Positions 2,475 through 21,133 of a DNA stretch of 21,133 nt are shown piece by piece. Source of the DNA: a virus; the IMG/VR virus record IMGVR_UViG_3300020021_000248, positions 1-21,133 of that record; one strand, given 5' to 3'. The notes below the pieces were generated by a model. That model was given only the letters and a program-made list of their open reading frames with translations. It did no database searches and was not told where the DNA came from. A program made the translations under genes and the position numbers. How positions within the stretch are numbered: the first letter of the stretch is position 1; each line of letters begins with the position of its first letter.

Positions 2475-4814
2475 ATGACGAGCTACAAGATCAACGACTC
2501 TCTCTTTCTGGTTCAACAGCAGGTCAGCAAAGAGGCGGCCAAGCCAGCTGTCGTCGAAGTCCCGACCAATCACCTGTTGGTGATCGACTGTTCGGGCAGC
2601 ATGTGGGGTGAGTTGGCGAAGATCGCCACGCAGCTCAAGGCCAAGCTGCCGAAGATCCTCAAGGAGGACGATACCGTCTCCATCATTTGGTTCTCGGGTC
2701 GCGGGCAGTGTGGAGCCCTCCTCGAGGGTGAGCGCGTTAGCAACCTGGCGGAGCTGGAGACCATCAACCGGCAGATCGACCGTTGGCTGAAGCCCATTGG
2801 GCTCACAGGCTTCAAGGAGCCCCTTCAGCTCGTGGGCAGTGTGGTGGAGAAGGTCACCAAGAAGGCCCCCAAGGGCAGTGCCTTCAGCCTCTACTTTCTG
2901 ACCGACGGTTGTGACAACCAGTCGACACGTCCTGAGATCATGAAGGCCGTCGAAGACGCGGGCTCGAAGGTGTCGACTACGACCTTCGTCGAGTACGGCT
3001 ACTACGCAGACCGCACGCTGTTGACGCAGATGGCCGAGAAGTGCGGCGGCGTGCTGATCTTCGCCGAGACCTTCGACACCTACGCTCCCAGCATCGAAGC
3101 CGCTATGCAGAAGAAGGTGACGGGCGCCAAGCGGGTCGAAGTGAAGATCCCCGGCGACCCCGTCAATGGCTTTGCCTACTCGTTGGCGGACGGCGATTTG
3201 ACGGCCTACGCGATCGAAGCGGGTGCCGTGAAGGTGCCGGAGGATCTGGCGGAGCTGTGGTACGTCACTCCAAAAGCGGAGGGCAAGATCGAAAACCTCC
3301 CACGAGATCCCCACGCAGCGGGCCAAGCCTCGTATGCGGCCCTGAGCCTCTATGCTCAACGTATGAATTCGAACGTTGTGTTCGCCTTACTGAAGGCGAC
3401 GGGCGACGTCCAGTTCATCGAGCAGTTCGCCAACTGCTTCGGCAAGCAGAAGTACAGCGAGTTCACAGAGGCTGCCAAGGGAGCTACCTTCAACGCCGCT
3501 CTGCGTCTCGTCAAAGGGTACGATCCTAACAAGATCCCACCGGACGACGCCTTCACGGTGCTCGATCTGTTGAAGGTCCTGAGCAGCGACGACGGCAACC
3601 GTGTCTTGCTGGACAGCAAGGACTTCAAGTACTCGAAGATGAGCCGTGGCCGTGTCGACGCCGACACCCAGCTGACGGCGGAAGAGCAGGAAGAGATTTC
3701 CAAGCTGACGGTCGAGATGGGCAAGACGAAGGACGCCAAGAAGATGGCGACGTTGGCGGCCAAAATCGCAGCTGTGACGGCCAACAAACCCGCCCCGTTG
3801 AAATTCGTGGCCGACCAACAGCCCAACGGCTATCCGATCTCGACTCTCGGGTACAACGAGGACCGTCCGAACATCAATTTCTTGGTCCGTAAGACGGGCA
3901 CTGTGGATCTGAGCGGACGGTCCGCACCCTCGAAGGTGCCCGCCAGCTTCCCGACGTTCATCTTCCGCAACTACAACGTCATCAAGGACGGACTCGTGGG
4001 TCTCGACCGTTTGCCGGTCCGCCTCACGGCGGGCACCATCCGGGCCCTGAAGGCCGCTGGGATGCCGATCGAAGCCATCCAGAACCCTGAGGGTGAGACG
4101 CTGGAGGAGACACGTACGCGGGTCAAGAAGGCGGGCGACGACCGTGAGGTCAACGTGGTGTTCGACATCAAAGCGTTGCCCATCATCAACCGTAAGATGG
4201 TCAAGGAGGTGTCGGCCAAGACGCTCTTCGAGACCGAGTGGTCACTCGCTAAGGCGAGGGCCTCACAAAAGGTGTACAGCGCCTACTTGAAGGACCTGGC
4301 TCCGAAAGAGAGCAAAGGGTTCATTGAGCAGTACGGACAGGAAGCGGCTGATTGGCTCAAGGAGCAGGGGTTCACCGATTACTCGGGCTTTGCCCCCAAG
4401 TCCGTGCAAGCGGAGTCGACGGACGTCTACATGGGCAAGGTCTTGGCTGTGAAGCTGAAGGGCTACTCGACCATCCCGTCGCTCGCCGAGGCCAAGAAGA
4501 AGATCGCTGCCGGCAAACCCAACCCGCCCACGCTGCTGATGAAGCCCTCTATCGATGAGGCGGAAGCTCAGATCACGAAGACGGGTAGTGACAAGGCCGC
4601 TTTGGCGACTTGGTTCGAGGCCAAGAAGAAAGAGGCAACCACTCGGGTTCGTGAGCTGATCTACACGATGGCTCAGATCAAATTTGGCGTGGTGGTCGGG
4701 CAAACCTGGCCGGTCGAATTTAAGAGCCTCGATGAAAATTCCTTGGACCTCGACCTCGACGGCTTGAAGCTCAGCTTCACCCTGGAGATGAGTGAGGAAG
4801 AAATTCGCATATAG
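2475..4814 (+). CDS. Large vWA-domain protein
   Basis: 779 residues; strong SD AAGGAG (2462-2467) seven bases before ATG. Residues ~31-215 form a von Willebrand factor A domain with a complete MIDAS metal site: DCSGS (38-42), T111 in GLTGF, and D144 in FLTDG. Such domains bind a partner through a divalent cation. The remaining ~560 residues are not recognised: a Lys/Ala/Asp-rich helical stretch (about 410-450) and a C-terminus with repeated LDLDLDG-type acidic strands. No signal peptide or membrane segment, so cytoplasmic or virion location is likely. The gene has its own promoter-like element upstream and is followed after 19 bases by a homing endonuclease. Long minus-strand frames over it are shadows. 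The partner is unknown. Confidence 0.85.
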   Translation: MTSYKINDSLFLVQQQVSKEAAKPAVVEVPTNHLLVIDCSGSMWGELAKIATQLKAKLPKILKEDDTVSIIWFSGRGQCGALLEGERVSNLAELETINRQIDRWLKPIGLTGFKEPLQLVGSVVEKVTKKAPKGSAFSLYFLTDGCDNQSTRPEIMKAVEDAGSKVSTTTFVEYGYYADRTLLTQMAEKCGGVLIFAETFDTYAPSIEAAMQKKVTGAKRVEVKIPGDPVNGFAYSLADGDLTAYAIEAGAVKVPEDLAELWYVTPKAEGKIENLPRDPHAAGQASYAALSLYAQRMNSNVVFALLKATGDVQFIEQFANCFGKQKYSEFTEAAKGATFNAALRLVKGYDPNKIPPDDAFTVLDLLKVLSSDDGNRVLLDSKDFKYSKMSRGRVDADTQLTAEEQEEISKLTVEMGKTKDAKKMATLAAKIAAVTANKPAPLKFVADQQPNGYPISTLGYNEDRPNINFLVRKTGTVDLSGRSAPSKVPASFPTFIFRNYNVIKDGLVGLDRLPVRLTAGTIRALKAAGMPIEAIQNPEGETLEETRTRVKKAGDDREVNVVFDIKALPIINRKMVKEVSAKTLFETEWSLAKARASQKVYSAYLKDLAPKESKGFIEQYGQEAADWLKEQGFTDYSGFAPKSVQAESTDVYMGKVLAVKLKGYSTIPSLAEAKKKIAAGKPNPPTLLMKPSIDEAEAQITKTGSDKAALATWFEAKKKEATTRVRELIYTMAQIKFGVVVGQTWPVEFKSLDENSLDLDLDGLKLSFTLEMSEEEIRI

Positions 4815-4821
4815 TTCGTGC

Positions 4822-4827
4822 TAGACT
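4822..4827 (+). promoter_or_regulatory. TAGACT -10 box, leaderless start of GIY-YIG gene 1
   Basis: TAGACT is followed by exactly six bases and then GTG 4834; no SD is present. This spacing (TAnnnT-N6-RTG) is the usual leaderless arrangement and is also seen at 14885-14897 and on the minus strand at 6776-6764. Confidence 0.4.
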
Positions 4828-4833
4828 TGGGTT

Positions 4834-5565
4834 GTGGCTAGTTCTCAACTCCAGTCTTGGTTCATATACACCTTGGAAGATCCCCGCTACCCGGGAGTAA
4901 TCCGGTATCTAGGTTGGACGGTGGACCCGGGCAAACGTCTACAAGGGCACTTAGCAGGTGCAAAATCGGGTCGGGACAAAACACGCTGCGGTGTTTGGAA
5001 GCGGTCCTTGTTGCGAGAGGGTTTGAAGCCAGTACTGAAAATAGTCGAGACTGGAAGCGGTGAAGGATGGCCAGCTGTCGAGATTCGGTGGATTGCTGAT
5101 TTGAGAAATGAGGGTCAACCACTCTTGAATCATACCGAGGGTGGGGAAGGATTTCGTGGGAGACACTCTGAAGAAACCAAGTCTCGCATGAGTGCCGTTG
5201 CTAAGGGGAGGCCAAAGCCACCACGCGGCGAAGAGCATGTGAAGAACCTGGCCGCAGCTCTTAAGGCCCGTCAGTACACGCCAGAGCTGCGGGCTAAGAT
5301 GCGAGAGGCCCACCTTGGGCAGCAGGTGCCCCAAGAGCGCAGGACCCGAACGAGTGCCACCATGAAAGCGATGTTGGCGGCCAATCCTGATTTGGCTACT
5401 CGGCGGGGGGATGTCTTGAGAGCACGTATGGCTCAACCGAAGGCCCGAGCTGAGAAGAGCGCAGAGTTGAAGGCCTTCTGGAGCGATCCCATAAGAAGAG
5501 CCGAACGTATTGCAGCTCAGAAGGCGGGGCATGCTAGAAAGAGAAGCACTGGCCAACCCTCCTGA
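4834..5565 (+). CDS. GIY-YIG homing endonuclease 1 with NUMOD3-type repeats
   Basis: 243 residues from GTG 4834. The GIY-YIG nuclease core is at residues ~9-100: FIYTL (10-14) and RYLGWT (24-29) stand for the GIY and YIG motifs, R35 is the likely catalytic Arg, E83 the likely metal ligand, and LLNHTEGGEG (97-106) the typical exit motif. Residues ~107-165 carry NUMOD3-like DNA-binding repeats (GFRGRHSEETKSRMS; ARQYTPELRAKMREAH), then a basic helical tail. It would cut a specific DNA site to spread its own gene. It lies free-standing between the vWA gene and a small HTH gene, not in an obvious intron, and is followed by a hairpin and a folded 57-base element. Confidence 0.88.
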   Translation: MASSQLQSWFIYTLEDPRYPGVIRYLGWTVDPGKRLQGHLAGAKSGRDKTRCGVWKRSLLREGLKPVLKIVETGSGEGWPAVEIRWIADLRNEGQPLLNHTEGGEGFRGRHSEETKSRMSAVAKGRPKPPRGEEHVKNLAAALKARQYTPELRAKMREAHLGQQVPQERRTRTSATMKAMLAANPDLATRRGDVLRARMAQPKARAEKSAELKAFWSDPIRRAERIAAQKAGHARKRSTGQPS

Positions 5566-5596
5566 GTGCGAACAGGTGCTTTCTTATAGGGGTTTT

Positions 5597-5620
5597 AAAT
5601 CGACACTGTCGATTTCTTTT
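5597..5620 (+). terminator. Hairpin plus T-rich tail after GIY-YIG gene 1
   Basis: AAATCGAC (5597-5604), loop ACT, GTCGATTT (5608-5615), then CTTTT. The 8-bp stem is perfect and the tail is T-rich on the plus strand, as in a Rho-independent terminator. The stem is AT-rich, so it might instead be an operator palindrome. Confidence 0.5.
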
Positions 5621-5642
5621 CTCCTGCGTATTCTGAGTTTTG

Positions 5643-5699
5643 GGGTTACCCTGAAGAGGCGATCGACAAAGTCGTCGGTCAACTTCAAGAGAGTAACCC
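5643..5699 (+). other. Nested three-stem RNA structure abutting the 5701 start
   Basis: Three co-linear helices: GGGTTAC (5643-5649) with GTAACCC (5693-5699); TGAAG (5652-5656) with CTTCA (5683-5687); GATCGAC (5661-5667) with GTCGGTC (5674-5680, one G-U). About 19 pairs in 57 bases, ending one base before ATG 5701. The region between the genes at 5565 and 5701 contains no credible ORF. Confidence 0.6.
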
Positions 5700-5700
5700 T

Positions 5701-5922
5701 ATGAATCAAGAGACTGTTGAACTATTCGAGTACATAGCCACAGCCTACAAGGCAGCAGGTTTCCCGCCTATCCACAGCTGGACGTTCGGCCCCAATGATG
5801 GTGACGACGTCACTCCTTACCGTGAGCTGCGAGCGTACGGGCTGATCCAAGGATTCACGATGGGGGAGCGGGAGTGGCGCCTTACTCAATCAGGTTTGGA
5901 GAAAATCCTAACTGATGAGTAA
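5701..5922 (+). CDS. Small winged-helix-like protein
   Basis: 73 residues from ATG 5701. The shape is helix (TVELFEYIATAYKAAG), turn, helix (PYRELRAYGLIQG), a short strand pair (FTMGEREWRLTQSG) and a final helix, which is typical of a compact winged-helix DNA-binding domain such as phage regulators. No catalytic motif. There is no clear SD; the start abuts the 57-base folded leader, so translation may be controlled by that structure. It faces the minus-strand pair that ends at 5986. The fold call is by pattern only. Confidence 0.65.
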   Translation: MNQETVELFEYIATAYKAAGFPPIHSWTFGPNDGDDVTPYRELRAYGLIQGFTMGEREWRLTQSGLEKILTDE

Positions 5923-5985
5923 AGGACGGCGGCCACTCAAAGAAGGACCCTCGCTTGCGCTACTCCGAAGCACAAGTGGAGGTGG

Positions 5986-6219
5986 CTAGATTACAAGGGT
6001 CGACACAACAAGGTCACACACAACTTCGAATCGGGTCAGGAGGGTCATCATAGCCCTCCTGAAGTCCGAGTCCTCAACGGAAGCGACGGACCTGTATGTG
6101 TCGTTGTGTAGGACCACGAGCCACGCATGGCCTTGCGAGTACGTGATGATTCCCCGCAAGCCGTATTCGGCAAAGCGGCGATTGATGGTGCGATGGTAGG
6201 CCCAGTAGGCGTCGGTCAT
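5986..6219 (-). CDS. Small hypothetical protein, minus-strand island
   Basis: 77 residues, read leftward from ATG at 6219 with AGGG just upstream. It begins MTDAYWAYHRTINRRFAEYG and has strand-like ITYSQGHAWLVVLHND and a hydrophobic C-terminus (VVCDLVVSTLVI) too short and mixed to call a membrane span. Plus-strand frames here are less plausible. It lies 35 bases downstream of the 6764 gene on the same strand, so the two probably share a transcript. Function unknown. Confidence 0.6.
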   Translation of the reverse strand: MTDAYWAYHRTINRRFAEYGLRGIITYSQGHAWLVVLHNDTYRSVASVEDSDFRRAMMTLLTRFEVVCDLVVSTLVI

Positions 6220-6254
6220 GCCCTAGGACGGCGAAGTCCTTCAGGGTCTGACAG

Positions 6255-6764
6255 CTACTGGAGACGCTCGACCACCCACTGCTTGCGATCCGGTAGTTTC
6301 TCCATCGGGCCCTGCACGTAGACCTTCCAGCGAGAGTCCGAGAGCCGCCGAGGTACGGGCAGTTCTTGCCGGATAAACGCCTGGTTGAGGGCGTAGTCGC
6401 TTCGTATCTTGGTCAAAGCCTTGAGGTCCGTGACCCGGTAGGTGGCGATGAACGAGTCCTCTCCTAGACGTTCCAGGATGCGCCACTCCCCGCACTGGTC
6501 GATCAACAAGGAATCGGGTCCACTGATCAGGTCGGGGCCGTGGTGGACCTCGAAGGGCAGCGCCCGCCCCTCTTGAATGAGGTCGTACCACGGGTAGCTG
6601 TAGGCCCTGGGTGGGGCCTCTGGGAACACTTCCTTGTCTTCTTTGAGACGCTGCAATAGCGAGGAATGGTCGGCGTCGATTTTGAGCTGTTGGGCATTCG
6701 AGAGCATGATGCCGTTCGCTTCTCGAATTTCCAACCAGCGCATGAAGGCGTCAAGGGGCTCCAT
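6255..6764 (-). CDS. Hypothetical protein, minus-strand island
   Basis: 169 residues from ATG 6764. A helical N-terminus (AFMRWLEIREANG) is followed by Pro/Tyr-rich segments (APPRAYSYPWYDLIQEG) and a C-terminal half with alternating strands and many Trp/Arg residues (KVYVQGPMEKLPDRKQW). No recognised family, no Cys, no signal peptide. The start is supported by TAGGGT-N6-ATG (leaderless spacing) or alternatively by AAAGG directly touching the ATG. Its promoter region (6765-6798) is shared with the divergent 6799 gene. Minus-strand location within an otherwise plus-strand array suggests an independently regulated or acquired pair. Confidence 0.65.
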   Translation of the reverse strand: MEPLDAFMRWLEIREANGIMLSNAQQLKIDADHSSLLQRLKEDKEVFPEAPPRAYSYPWYDLIQEGRALPFEVHHGPDLISGPDSLLIDQCGEWRILERLGEDSFIATYRVTDLKALTKIRSDYALNQAFIRQELPVPRRLSDSRWKVYVQGPMEKLPDRKQWVVERLQ

Positions 6765-6770
6765 CCTTTC

Positions 6771-6776
6771 ACCCTA
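6771..6776 (-). promoter_or_regulatory. TAGGGT box of the minus-strand island
   Basis: On the minus strand TAGGGT is followed by six bases (GAAAGG) and ATG 6764. On the plus strand of the same 34-base divergent gap, TATCAT (6775-6780) and GGTGTA (6781-6786) could serve the 6799 gene. Confidence 0.35.
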
Positions 6777-6798
6777 TCATGGTGTACTCGCTCAAGTC

Positions 6799-7161
6799 AT
6801 GCCGTTTGCTGCCGTAGAGATTAAACAAGGGGAGACCGCTCACGTGACGGTCAAGGCCATCATGGACTTCGCCGCCATCGAGGGGTGTAACTTCATGTCT
6901 TTCGAGCTGCTGGGGATCCTGCTTCTAGGTCGGATCAAGTTCGTACGGTTCCGTACGGAGAGTAAGTCCCTCCAGGATGTCCTGCTGAAGCTCGACCGCG
7001 GGGTCGTGTATCAGAAGGGTGGCGGCTATCTATTGAGGTTTCCAGGGGAAGCCATGCCGAGCCCGGTCAACATTTTGACCATGACGTCGGTGGGGGAACC
7101 TAACATCAAGAGGACCTATCGTGGACCTGGCGTAAAATACTGGGAGAGGCAATTTCTATGA
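6799..7161 (+). CDS. Hypothetical protein
   Basis: 120 residues from ATG 6799; the frame extends further 5' but that part lies over the minus-strand gene, so the first ATG in the divergent gap is preferred. It starts MPFAAVEIKQGETAHVTV, contains a hydrophobic helix (FELLGILLLGRIKFVRF, about residues 36-52) and ends in a basic stretch. The helix is short and followed by Arg/Lys, so soluble packing is as likely as membrane contact. The stop overlaps the next start as ATGA (7158-7161). Function unknown. Confidence 0.65.
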   Translation: MPFAAVEIKQGETAHVTVKAIMDFAAIEGCNFMSFELLGILLLGRIKFVRFRTESKSLQDVLLKLDRGVVYQKGGGYLLRFPGEAMPSPVNILTMTSVGEPNIKRTYRGPGVKYWERQFL

Positions 7162-7457
7162 GCACCTGTGGTTTTGATGAATCGTGGGTCGGCCGTTGTA
7201 AAGAGCCCTCCGGTGCGACGGAGCGGTGTTCGAAACACGCTGATCTTAAATGCACGTCATGTGGAGCACCTGCCGTCAGATCCTGTGACCATACAGGGGG
7301 TTTCGTCTGTGGGGCACCCCTCTGCGGGGACTGCCGGCACAGCCCGCCTGTGAAGGATTCGCTCAATCTTTTCGGTATGGGTGGAGACCATAAGCCGAGC
7401 GAAATCGCGATCGAGGAGTGGCGGAAGCATTGGGCGGCCGAAGGGTCCTTGTTGTAA
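7158..7457 (+). CDS. Cys/His-rich zinc-binding protein
   Basis: 99 residues, start coupled by ATGA overlap and by GGGAGAGG upstream. Likely metal ligands are C4, C14, C24, H27, C32, C35, C43, H45, C51, C56, C59 and H61, enough for two or three zinc sites; spacing such as CTSC and CGDCRH recalls B-box or treble-clef fingers. The C-terminal third is an acidic amphipathic helix (SEIAIEEWRKHWAAEG). It could bind protein or nucleic acid. A strong hairpin begins one base after the stop. No family assigned. Confidence 0.7.
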   Translation: MSTCGFDESWVGRCKEPSGATERCSKHADLKCTSCGAPAVRSCDHTGGFVCGAPLCGDCRHSPPVKDSLNLFGMGGDHKPSEIAIEEWRKHWAAEGSLL

Positions 7458-7458
7458 A

Positions 7459-7486
7459 TTACGGCCCCCTTGTAAGGGGGCCGTAA
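7459..7486. terminator. 12-13 bp GC-rich hairpin without U-tract
   Basis: TTACGGCCCCCTT (7459-7471) and AAGGGGGCCGTAA (7474-7486) are perfectly complementary, with a loop of about four bases. On the plus strand the tail is A-rich, not T-rich, so it is either a U-less terminator or an mRNA 3'-end stabiliser. Confidence 0.6.
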
Positions 7487-7498
7487 AAAACGACGCAC

Positions 7499-7528
7499 CC
7501 TACGAATTATTTCGAAAATAACGATAGG
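7499..7528. promoter_or_regulatory. AT-rich palindrome upstream of the DndB-like gene
   Basis: TTATTT (7507-7512), CGA, AAATAA (7516-7521) is a perfect palindrome, with an imperfect outer pair CCTA (7499) and TAGG (7525). It stands out in this GC-rich window and could be an operator for the 7593 gene. Confidence 0.4.
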
Positions 7529-7560
7529 GCCCGCACTGTGTTGGCGTAGGGGAGGTTTGC

Positions 7561-7593
7561 GTGAAGGTTACTGACCTTTCGCAGAAAGAAAAA
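7561..7593 (+). other. SD-led GTG start, possible N-terminal extension or leader ORF
   Basis: GGGGAGG (7549-7555) lies five bases before GTG 7561. This frame reads VKVTDLSQKEK and then continues out of phase to a stop at 7684-7686. A -1 shift at the five-A run (7589-7593) would join it exactly to the ATG at 7593. It may be a leader peptide, a recoding site or a missing A in the sequence. Confidence 0.4.
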
Positions 7594-8795
7594 TGTCACA
7601 TACGTACAACGCTATCCGAGGGCACTTCGGTTCACTCGACACTTACCTCATCCAGATTCGGCCCGCAGAGATTCCAGAGATCGTAGGACACGATCCTAGG
7701 GACCTTTCTAAAAAGCGGCCCAAGGACTTGCGGCAGGGTGCGATTCACGACCTGTACGACAAGGTACAACGGGGTATCGAGACGGACCTCGTCGAAGAAC
7801 TCCGTGAATACGTAGAACAGTACAGTCAACCTGATTCTGAAGGAGTTGGGGCTCTTCCAGCCTTAGCTGTAGGCATGACGATGCCTCTTGATTTTAGGCC
7901 TTTCGAGGGTCAGGACGTTGTAAATGGAGTGGTCGGTCGTCTGACCATTCCAAGTTACTATGAACTTCCTGGGAAGGCTCTTTATCTGGACGGGCTAAAA
8001 CGAGCTTGTGCTGTGCTTGCTTGTTATCAACCAGAGGATGGGAGCGTTTCAATTCTTGACCCTGTCAACATTGCGGTGATGATTTTCGTCCCGAAACCAG
8101 GGCACACTCTCTCGGAGAAAGACCTTAAGCAACTGTTCTACGACTTCAATTCGAAGGCCACTCCTATCACAAGGCAGCAAGCTATTACGCGAGACAGTCG
8201 CGACCCTTATCTTCAGCTTGCTCGGGCTCTCGCCGAATCCGAGGTGCTCATCAAGAACGGAGGGGTAGACACCGATCGAGTGCAGCTTAAGAAGGGTGGG
8301 GTTCACGTGGCCACATTCTCGAATATGGTTACTTTTGTTCGAGGGGCCCTTGAGGGTCAAGCTGCTGCCGATCAAGCACGCAAGTCCGGGCCTAATCTTA
8401 CGAAAGAGAACTTAGATTCCTTCAAGGGCGAGCTTCTTTCGTTTTTAGGGTCTTTCGTTGAGGGCATGACCCCGGAAAAATTCAAGGATCAGGAAGAGCA
8501 CTTCCACTTGATGGCCGCGGGTTGGATGGCCTTGGGGGTGATCTTCCACGAGATTCGTATTCGTAGGCACATCACAGGAGAAGCTCTTGCCGAATATGGT
8601 CGTCGGACAGGGCGGATCCCGTGGAGGAATGACGCACCCCTCTGGACACATCTTCGTGTTCAGAAAACTGATGCTCGGGGAGTAGTGAAGTACGGTTGGT
8701 TAGTTCAGGGCAGCCATGTACCTGGAAGGGAAATTGTGAAGGTTCTTCGTAAAGAGCTTGGACTTATCCCTGATCCCGCAATTGCTGCTGAATGA
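7593..8795 (+). CDS. DndB/DGQHR-family protein
   Basis: 400 residues from ATG 7593. The N-terminus AIRGHFGSLDTYLIQI fits the 'RG...YYV' opening strand of the DGQHR family. DGLKR at 133-137 is the family DGQHR signature with two substitutions, and the segment 184-205 (DFNSKATPITR, then DSRDP) is the strongly conserved DndB-type block. DndB proteins regulate phosphorothioate DNA modification clusters, and DGQHR relatives occur in 7-deazaguanine DNA modification systems. No dndCDE, dpdA or queuosine genes are visible, so this is an orphan here. Its third codon positions look poorer in G/C than those of the vWA or ClpX genes, hinting at separate origin. ATG 7593 lacks a good SD; see the upstream GTG. 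Confidence 0.82.
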   Translation: MSHTYNAIRGHFGSLDTYLIQIRPAEIPEIVGHDPRDLSKKRPKDLRQGAIHDLYDKVQRGIETDLVEELREYVEQYSQPDSEGVGALPALAVGMTMPLDFRPFEGQDVVNGVVGRLTIPSYYELPGKALYLDGLKRACAVLACYQPEDGSVSILDPVNIAVMIFVPKPGHTLSEKDLKQLFYDFNSKATPITRQQAITRDSRDPYLQLARALAESEVLIKNGGVDTDRVQLKKGGVHVATFSNMVTFVRGALEGQAAADQARKSGPNLTKENLDSFKGELLSFLGSFVEGMTPEKFKDQEEHFHLMAAGWMALGVIFHEIRIRRHITGEALAEYGRRTGRIPWRNDAPLWTHLRVQKTDARGVVKYGWLVQGSHVPGREIVKVLRKELGLIPDPAIAAE

Positions 8796-8816
8796 CCTAG
8801 GTTCTTTTGATTAGCA

Positions 8817-8845
8817 GGCCGTAGGTGTGGACACACCCTACGGCC
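8817..8845 (+). other. Hairpin enclosing the start codon of GIY-YIG gene 2
   Basis: GGCCGTAGG (8817-8825) pairs with CCTACGGCC (8837-8845), and TGTG (8826-8829) with CACA (8832-8835); one C bulges. The GTG start (8827-8829) is inside the helix, so translation should be blocked when it folds. Confidence 0.65.
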
Positions 8846-9717
8846 GCATTTACTTGCTTCGGAATCTGACCAACGGGCGGGTTTACGTAGGCCAGACTAA
8901 AGGGTCGTTGAGCAGCCGATGGAAAAGGCATCAATCGACTGCGAAAACGTCGCAGGCTCCGTTGCACCGGGCTTTGAGAAAGTCCGGCCCTGACTTTTTT
9001 CAAGTAGAAGAGCTGGAGCTGTGTGCTGACTCCGTTGCGTTGAACTTGGCTGAAGCCAAATGGGTCGCTTATTACTGCTCAAACGTTCGAGGTGTTGGTT
9101 ACAATTGCACGAGCGGTGGGGATGCCGGTCATGTGTTCACCGTCGAAGCCCGTGAGAGGATCTCCTCCTCCCAAAAGAAACGTTTGCAAGATCCTCAGGT
9201 GAAAGCTCGGATGGCCATGTCAGCTCGACGCCAATGGTCAGATCCTGACTTCCGAACCCAAGCTTCTCGACGAGCCAAACTACAGTTCGGGAACCCTGAA
9301 GCACGTCAGGCTTCCTCTCGCCGGCAAAAGCAGATGATGGCGGAATGTCCAGAGCGTCGAGGACAGCTAGCAGCGTACAATCAGACGATTGAGGCTCGAG
9401 TGGCCAAATCACTCAGCCGAAAGAAATTCTTTCAAGAGAACCCTGAGAAACGAAAGGCTTTCTCTGTCGTGCAGCGGACTCGCCTTGCACAGCAAGGCGA
9501 GTCCAAGGCGGACTTCATCCTGAAGGCCCTGGAAGGTGGTGAACGCCTGTCCCGAGATCTTGTGAGCGAACGTTATCCAATAGACCGGGTAAACGAGGGC
9601 TTGAGCCGTTACCAAAAAGTGGGATTCGTAAAGTCTCGACCGTTGTTGCCTGAAGAACGTCCAGACATCTGTGGTCGATGTCGTTCGAGAGCAAAGGTGT
9701 GGTCTCTATGCGCGTAG
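8827..9717 (+). CDS. GIY-YIG homing endonuclease 2 with HTH-like tail
   Basis: 296 residues from GTG 8827. GIY-YIG core: GRIYLL (6-11), VYVGQT (19-24), catalytic R31, probable metal ligand E76 and exit motif YNCTSGGDAGH (92-102). A NUMOD3-like segment follows (TVEARERISSSQKKR), then repeated basic 'NPEARQA/ DPQVKAR' helices as in phage GIY-YIG enzymes. The C-terminal ~75 residues look like a winged helix (FILKALEGGERLSRDLVSER) with a final CGRC...C that may bind zinc. It would cleave a cognate site and home. It sits between the DndB-like and amidase genes and overlaps the latter by 10 bases. Start codon and interior both carry strong hairpins. Confidence 0.88.
   Translation: MDTPYGRIYLLRNLTNGRVYVGQTKGSLSSRWKRHQSTAKTSQAPLHRALRKSGPDFFQVEELELCADSVALNLAEAKWVAYYCSNVRGVGYNCTSGGDAGHVFTVEARERISSSQKKRLQDPQVKARMAMSARRQWSDPDFRTQASRRAKLQFGNPEARQASSRRQKQMMAECPERRGQLAAYNQTIEARVAKSLSRKKFFQENPEKRKAFSVVQRTRLAQQGESKADFILKALEGGERLSRDLVSERYPIDRVNEGLSRYQKVGFVKSRPLLPEERPDICGRCRSRAKVWSLCA
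9476..9504. repeat. Perfect 13-bp hairpin inside GIY-YIG gene 2
   Basis: GGACTCGCCTTGC (9476-9488), loop ACA, GCAAGGCGAGTCC (9492-9504). A perfect 13-bp stem with a 3-base loop is not expected by chance in 21 kb. It lies just before the C-terminal HTH-like part and is read through as coding sequence. Confidence 0.8.
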
Positions 9718-18547: not shown

Positions 18548-18664
18548 GCCCTTCCGGGATGAAGCTCAGCGGTCTTGGCAAATAGTCAAAGGCTACTGAG
18601 CTTCGAGGGCCTTCTCCTCGGCAAGAAGTTCATTTTGGTCTCGATCCAACGTGGGTGCGAGACC
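18548..18664 (+). other. Three consecutive hairpins in the 142-base gap after the H1-like gene
   Basis: GAAGCTCAG (18561-18569) with CTGAGCTTC (18596-18604), extended by GCCCT (18548) with AGGGC (18606); CTTCT (18611-18615) with AGAAG (18624-18628); GGTCTCG plus ATCCA (18637-18648) with TGGGT, a bulged G and CGAGACC (to 18664). No credible ORF and no T-run. Possibly a structured RNA, 3'-end element or leader of the 18690 gene. Confidence 0.6.
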
Positions 18665-20754: not shown

Positions 20755-20763
20755 GGCTCAACC

Positions 20764-21133
20764 GTGACGCCCTCGGAGATCAACGCTCCGAGGGGGGTCC
20801 GTATTCGGATCGAGTACACGGACCAACCCCTTTATCGGTACGGCAGTTACGAGCCCGCTAAGGGGTGGTTCACCACACAGCGAAAACGCGCTCCCATCGT
20901 CAACAGCGAGGAAATGCGTGAAGAGGGATTGGCGTACTTCCGAGCGGCCCTCAAAGAACAGGGTGTAGCGGGAGAGGTCTCGCTCGAAGAAGTAGCGAGC
21001 TTCGATCCTGATTGGTGCACTCCGCCCGGCGGCACCATCCGGGAATGTATGGAGCAGACCCCGTTGACGGAAGCGGAGCTTGCCGAGAAGCTGGGCCTAC
21101 CGGACGTGAAGGGTCTCCTTGAAGGTGAGACGG
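20764..21133 (+). CDS. HigA-like XRE-type HTH protein, N-terminal part (runs off right edge)
   Basis: Frame open from GTG 20764 to the window end (123 codons), nine bases after the previous stop; TGAGG upstream is a weak SD. The first ~75 residues are a strand-rich region (VRIRIEYTDQPLYRYGSYEP) not typical of HigA. Residues ~82-122 match the HigA/VapI-type helix-turn-helix: DPDWCTPPGGTIRECMEQ then LTEAELAEKLGLPDVKGLLE, where the Pro-Pro-Gly-x-Thr-Ile segment is characteristic. It probably binds DNA; antitoxin function is not shown and no toxin is visible. An inverted repeat overlaps its first codons. Confidence 0.7.
   Translation, partial: MTPSEINAPRGVRIRIEYTDQPLYRYGSYEPAKGWFTTQRKRAPIVNSEEMREEGLAYFRAALKEQGVAGEVSLEEVASFDPDWCTPPGGTIRECMEQTPLTEAELAEKLGLPDVKGLLEGET
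20770..20794. repeat. 9-bp inverted repeat at the start of the HigA-like gene
   Basis: CCCTCGGAG (20770-20778), 7-base spacer, CTCCGAGGG (20786-20794), perfect. It begins at codon 3 of the gene. Could be an autoregulatory operator, an mRNA hairpin slowing initiation, or a terminator of the upstream gene. Confidence 0.6.

Follow-up and report, generated by a model that had tools for sequence, protein, structure and literature searches.

A stable fold predicted at positions 5643 to 5699, lying directly in front of a small orphan ORF and behind a homing endonuclease gene in a viral sequence, raises the question of whether it is an RNA element in its own right or a by-product of the sequence in which it lies. 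The sequence analyzed here (the window) is an entire IMG/VR virus record of 21133 bases (IMGVR_UViG_3300020021_000248). In it, a macro-domain ORF (1915 to 2379) stands 5' of the plus-strand gene for a vWA-domain protein of 779 amino acids (2475 to 4814), which matched PHROG 2426 at 3.4e-173 and VWA_3 slightly below the Pfam cutoff, and behind which the endonuclease family is inserted; its 3' end is complete, as judged by comparison with the tails of 23 relatives. On the same strand follow HEG1, a putative free-standing GIY-YIG/NUMOD3 homing endonuclease gene for 243 amino acids with a GTG start (4834 to 5565), a 135-base gap (5566 to 5700), which carries a perfect 19-base palindrome at 5597 to 5615 as well as the fold, and the small ORF (5701 to 5922), which specifies 73 amino acids from ATG 5701. 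Farther 3' lie two minus-strand ORFs and then ORF 6634-7161. A tRNA search of the window found none, and an Rfam scan of the window gave 0 matches at the gathering score.

RNAfold assigned the plus-strand segment 5643 to 5699 a free energy of -24.5 kcal/mol (z = -4.22), which none of 200 dinucleotide shuffles reached, and the hairpin was also present when longer flanks were folded. The nested hairpin reported in the initial annotation was thereby confirmed. Of the three helices (7, 5, and 7 bp) that it had described, the outer and apical 7-bp helices were borne out with pair probabilities above 0.97, but in the middle RNAfold preferred 4 bp plus 2 bp over the 5-bp helix, which is a minority alternative (-21.3 for the full 7/5/7 structure versus -24.5 for the preferred fold; probabilities of 0.13 and 0.20 for the end pairs of the 5-bp helix). 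The accompanying view that the whole 135-base gap is structured proved weaker than claimed, the entire gap having a z of -2.42 with 4 of 200 shuffles as good. When 5566 to 5800 was folded, bases 5693 to 5701 were paired with probabilities above 0.9, so that the start region of ATG 5701 was covered, and the 3' arm of the fold holds the weak Shine-Dalgarno match of this start. That ATG 5701 has no clear Shine-Dalgarno sequence was a fair description, there being only a weak AAGAG/GAGAG match 7 nt upstream, with a duplex energy (-4.2 kcal/mol) no more extreme than those of other starts in the contig.

The initial annotation had proposed energy relative to shuffled controls as a check on the fold, and the fold withstood it for the site alone but only weakly once the whole contig was counted. 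Raw energies as low or lower were found in 577 of 21077 plus-strand windows of 57 nt, which formed 56 clusters. After correction for composition, the site was among 7 to 8 plus-strand clusters of the contig, on a regression z that overstates the absolute z (-5.4 versus -4.2 for the site) and serves for ranking only. Eight locally shuffled copies of the plus strand, scored with a refitted version of the regression, contained 1, 2, 1, 2, 0, 1, 0, and 1 equally strong clusters (8 in all). With 7 to 8 real clusters versus about 1 in shuffled sequence, the contig exceeds chance, but any single fold at this level has a fair chance of being accidental; the fold at 5643 to 5699 is unusual, yet in 21 kb chance alone should produce about one site like it on each strand. 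Of all 21077 windows, 1260 had at least 29 noncoding bases, whereas among the 75 windows with a z no higher than that of the site there were 35 of this type, and a fold with a z of -5.4 or lower was held by 5 of the 15 gaps of at least 29 nt, both counts being based on a hand-chosen gene set in which 5566 to 5700 was treated as noncoding. Because strong folds are in excess in gaps, some of these hairpins may be real 3'-end or leader structures, and this enrichment speaks for the fold as the best argument against dismissing it.

Most of the gap is an open frame, which the earlier reading had missed. The frame of ATG 5701 is open on the plus strand back to 5599, directly after a TAA at 5596, and its 34 codons (5599 to 5700) read IDTVDFFSPAYSEFWGYPEEAIDKVVGQLQESNP followed by MNQE; begun at 5599, the product would have 107 residues. 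ATG, GTG, and TTG are all absent from this segment, and its first codon is ATC (5599), with AGGGG 6 nt upstream (duplex, -6.4 kcal/mol). AUC is among the seven codons that start translation in Escherichia coli well above background, according to a study cited in PMC12350097. A start at 5599 and a truncated gene without its start codon are equally likely. In codon usage, the segment scored 0.158 per codon; windows taken in the true frame from genes of the contig scored 0.235 (SD, 0.163), and the segment ranked at their 29th percentile, whereas it exceeded 96% of off-frame windows. A segment both open and scoring as high was obtained in 8 of 5000 dinucleotide shuffles and in 164 of 6585 off-frame gene windows (164 of the 2419 that were open). 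The best score, 0.276, belonged to the half that carries the fold, and scores of 0.085 and -0.123 were obtained for the 73-amino-acid ORF and for an overlapping ORF at 5576 to 5704, respectively. The codon score is a weak witness of coding, given that HEG1, certainly a gene, gets -0.043. Only 2 of 4000 synonymous codon permutations within the ORF folded as well as the real stretch, as did 49 of 4000 sequences with codons drawn from the contig's usage. This hints at structure beyond coding in the stretch 5643 to 5699, and since the site had been chosen for folding well, the permutation result can only be taken as suggestive. A programmed frameshift into frame 1 near 5593 to 5600 was considered by eye and rejected, as the slippery heptamer TTTAAAT would lead into a different frame. 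The overlapping ORF, when taken from 5510 to 5704, ends as ATGA on the start at 5701, a layout of translational coupling with codon usage that is noncoding-like.

Searches for relatives of the 107-residue frame gave none by tblastn in phages (E values up to 1) or in plasmids, by peptide patterns in viral_contigs and genome_contigs, in the records of loci L002 and L003, or, among the matches listed, in 85 loci gathered via neighboring genes; relatives sought via the neighboring minus-strand ORF were likewise not found. A PDB sequence search with the same frame gave no match, and a single-sequence structure prediction of the 107 residues (mean pLDDT, 46.5) was too poor to use. The product of ORF 5701-5922 matched no family in Pfam or PHROGs and gave one irrelevant match below the cutoff in NCBIfam; the designation as a small HTH gene found no support, a helix-turn-helix being recognized by none of the three collections. 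At the DNA level, the gap and ORF were compared with 87 loci (among the matches listed), where the best blastn hits were chance-level 14-mers at an E value of 0.32 and nhmmer gave one match at 0.78. A covariance model of the fold, run over the window and 84 loci (846928 bases; among the matches listed), recovered nothing but the fold and the minus strand of the same site; a model based on a single sequence has little power, and diverged forms may have escaped it.

HEG1 is predicted, from its domains and its place, to be a free-standing homing endonuclease that does not lie inside an intron. Its product matched NUMOD3 at 22 bits (above the Pfam cutoff of 20.4), GIY-YIG at 18.9 bits (under the cutoff of 22.6), and PHROG 314 (homing endonuclease) at 1.6e-8. 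A vWA profile recovered at least 80 loci, and among the matches listed, relatives of HEG1 stood directly behind the vWA gene in two of them, L014 (48% identity; GIY-YIG, 29.1, above the cutoff; NUMOD3, 34.1) and L019 (37% identity by tblastn and 43% by alignment; NUMOD3, 35.3). A second scan with an endonuclease profile returned the same two places, L014 and L019 only. Residues Y12, Y25, G27, R35, H39, E83, and N99, which we take to be the catalytic positions of HEG1, are invariant in all three of these endonucleases. No Rfam intron was found at the gathering score in the window or in five relatives, and 4815 to 6000 gave two matches below threshold (E values of 1.6 and 7.2), far below the family cutoffs; the suggested trace of an intron found no credible counterpart there.

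A comparison of loci L019 and L015 gave a direct view of this interval. Their left flanks (6276 nt) share 96.4% identity and their right flanks (2791 nt) 99.3%, and between these, at the 3' terminus of the vWA gene, L019 has 1288 nt (6268 to 7555) where L015 has 63 nt (6274 to 6336). The 1288 nt comprise a different vWA end, the endonuclease, a 204-nt gap, and a 90-amino-acid ORF, and behind them stand the last bases of the vWA end of the L015 type. The exchange fits homing with exchange of flanking sequence, as is described for phage endonucleases in PMC10448857 and PMC2988022. In L024, which is collinear with the window, only 35 nt separate the vWA gene from the homologue of ORF 6634-7161, and the endonuclease and small ORF are absent. 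Other genes occupy the interval behind the vWA gene in L008 and L009, which indicates that sequence is exchanged here. Behind the insert of the window, a search for the remains of a second vWA end found none, and homing in the window's phage is suggested by place and gene order only. The comparison with an endonuclease-free relative that had been proposed thus showed the uninterrupted vWA end for L019, whereas for the window it gave only the gene order of L024. Similarly, the idea of a trace of a homing site holds for the neighborhood, with L014 and L019 as carriers behind the vWA gene, but not for the fold itself. On the minus strand of the first 110 nt behind the vWA stop in L013 and L084, a resemblance to a partial tRNA gene was seen by eye.

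Compared with the T4 seg genes and their relatives as described in PMC2988022 and PMC10448857, HEG1 is like them in being an intact-looking GIY-YIG/NUMOD3 ORF between genes, and its family is like them in having relatives at the same place, a near-identical occupied and unoccupied pair, and an exchange boundary at the endonuclease. It differs in standing behind a vWA gene of large environmental phages and in the varying trailing ORF, and its cleavage activity is predicted. What trails the endonuclease is not shared by its carriers: the gaps to the next ORF (135 nt in the window, 33 nt in L014, and 204 nt in L019) are mutually unlike, and the trailing ORFs of the window and L019 have an unconvincing match of 18 residues (pairwise E value of 0.006), with no match in the other two pairs. 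The L014 gap folds no better than chance sequence (z = 1.32), being matched or outdone by 192 of 200 shuffles. The L019 gap (7081 to 7284) folds strongly (z = -5.32; 0 of 200 shuffles) into a shape unrelated to that of the window, and an Rfam scan of L019 gave no match. Since the trailing gaps and ORFs differ in the three carriers, the endonuclease insert does not regularly include the fold.

We therefore considered what the fold is most likely to be. The best explanation, which we hold with as much doubt as confidence, is that it is part of the nonconserved cargo of a homing insert behind the vWA gene and a by-product of coding-like sequence. The endonuclease would cut the allele of the vWA 3' end that has no insert, and repair would copy the endonuclease together with neighboring sequence into the cut allele; the small orphan ORF may be such neighboring DNA or may have arrived separately. 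The fold would lie mostly in the coding-like front of the frame of this ORF, whose start codon is possibly lost or hidden, and the hairpin would be a by-product of the ORF sequence that has no dedicated RNA function. On read-through transcripts from upstream, initiation at ATG 5701 would nevertheless be lowered, simply because the hairpin covers the start region. We infer, on this reading, that 5599 to 5700 may be translated and that the fold is without function. The insert as such belongs to a known kind, that of free-standing phage homing endonucleases followed by variable sequence.

The main rival is a leader hairpin over the ATG 5701 start region, in which the fold closes the start on read-through transcripts and is opened by the passage of a ribosome or by transcription starting inside the leader. 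We consider this possible but on balance unlikely. The nearly complete pairing of 5693 to 5701 in the context 5566 to 5800 and the ability of the real fold to outdo nearly all synonymous permutations are in line with it, and ORF 5510/5576-5704, ending as ATGA on the start codon, would suit translational coupling; however, the codon usage of that ORF is noncoding (-0.123), promoter-like sites were absent from 4700 to 6300 in a scan of the sigma-70 type, and no relative was found that could show covariation. Hairpins that sequester the ribosome-binding sites of T4 late genes and homing endonuclease genes, described in PMC2988022, provide precedents in T4-type phages, and the fold of the window is like them in being a stable hairpin over a start region that lies downstream of other genes, probably on one message. 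Yet those precedents concern the own start of the endonuclease or of a late gene, whereas the fold of the window stands before an ORF behind the endonuclease and covers a weak Shine-Dalgarno match. In the translational switch bound by the 73-residue product that the initial annotation had suggested, the fold would likewise cover the start region of ATG 5701, but Pfam, PHROGs, and NCBIfam recognize no helix-turn-helix in this product. A further variant with two starts appears highly improbable: AUC 5599, behind AGGGG and inside the palindrome at 5597 to 5615, would yield 107 residues, and AUG 5701, shut by the hairpin, would yield 73 residues when opened by ribosomes translating the long form. 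If this were true, the proportion of the long and short products of a cargo gene within an endonuclease insert would be governed by the mRNA of that gene itself.

The remaining rivals turn on the palindrome and on the fold as a 3' or independent structure. The hairpin noted at 5597 to 5615 is present as a perfect palindrome with 9-bp arms and a 1-nt spacer, followed by a T-rich stretch, and it may be a putative terminator of the endonuclease message or a putative operator. It is conceivable, but rather unlikely, that the two structures form the 3' end of the vWA-HEG1 message, with 5597 to 5615 as an intrinsic terminator and the 57-base fold as a second terminator-like or RNA-protecting hairpin. 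Like a Rho-independent terminator, the palindrome combines a stem-loop and a T-rich stretch behind a gene, and it was among the matches in a scan of the region for terminator-like sites; it differs in having only 3 G-C pairs among the 8 of its stem and an interrupted T run (tail, CTTTTCTCCT), and the scan found 2 sites versus 1.4 expected by chance. The gap survey lends this reading some weight, as several of the strong folds in 5 of 15 contig gaps of at least 29 nt lie right behind gene ends, and L008 and L009 have strong hairpins right behind the vWA gene, followed in L008 by a short T-rich stretch. The 57-base fold, in contrast, has no T run after it and abuts a start codon downstream rather than a gene end. 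We regard it as very unlikely that 5597 to 5615 and a related half-site at 5662 to 5674 are operator DNA bound by the small ORF's own repressor product, with the RNA fold incidental. The perfection of the palindrome would accord with an operator, as would the repeat of ATCGACA..GTCG 63 bp apart and the six occurrences of TCGACANTGTCGA with at most two mismatches, versus 1.0 expected; however, the other four of these six sites fall within unrelated genes or at their edges, and the product of the small ORF has no recognized DNA-binding domain, its single-sequence model proving nothing. Least credible is a small structured RNA of its own or an intron remnant, which the stability of the site alone would favor. 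The proposal of a small structured RNA found no Rfam family at the gathering score (the matches with E values of 1.6 and 7.2 being below threshold), and the covariance model found no second copy in the 84 loci (among the matches listed); moreover, the vWA gene is complete.

Taken with the cargo reading preferred above, the lack of any relative found, the coding-like DNA, and the expectation of about one such hairpin per strand by chance indicate that the fold at 5643 to 5699, real but orphan, is probably ordinary by present evidence. Its own import is little, and the neighborhood is of more use: L015 and L019 show, as a natural before-and-after pair, how an endonuclease and an unrelated small ORF came to stand behind a vWA gene, and this pair makes the question of endonuclease-carried sequence directly testable. 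The locus also illustrates that where a gap taken for intergenic contains a strong-looking fold, an in-frame extension may have been overlooked at the same place, and that such a fold is not necessarily an RNA element.

Other parts of the window contained further hairpins and a second endonuclease. Very strong hairpins, mostly without a T run, lie right behind gene ends at 7458 to 7592, 18548 to 18650, and 20755 to 21133. A DndB-like gene (7593 to 8795; PF14072, 4.3e-14) adjoins a second GIY-YIG endonuclease gene (endonuclease 2, GTG 8827), whose product scored above the Pfam GIY-YIG cutoff; the DndB-like gene lies in an interval between ORF 6634-7161 and the nitrilase gene that is missing between their homologues in L003, L009, and L024. 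The start of endonuclease 2 lies in a strong hairpin (8797 to 8873; z = -4.33; 0 of 300), and the start of its homologue in L008 (ATG 7722) lies in a 9-bp hairpin of other sequence (7700 to 7745; z = -1.96; 13 of 300). GTG 8827 is preceded by CTTTTGATTA and ATG 7722 by CCTTTGATTA. Both hairpins resemble those that cover the ribosome-binding sites of T4 endonuclease genes (PMC2988022), and endonuclease 2 of the window matches that class better than the 57-base fold does.
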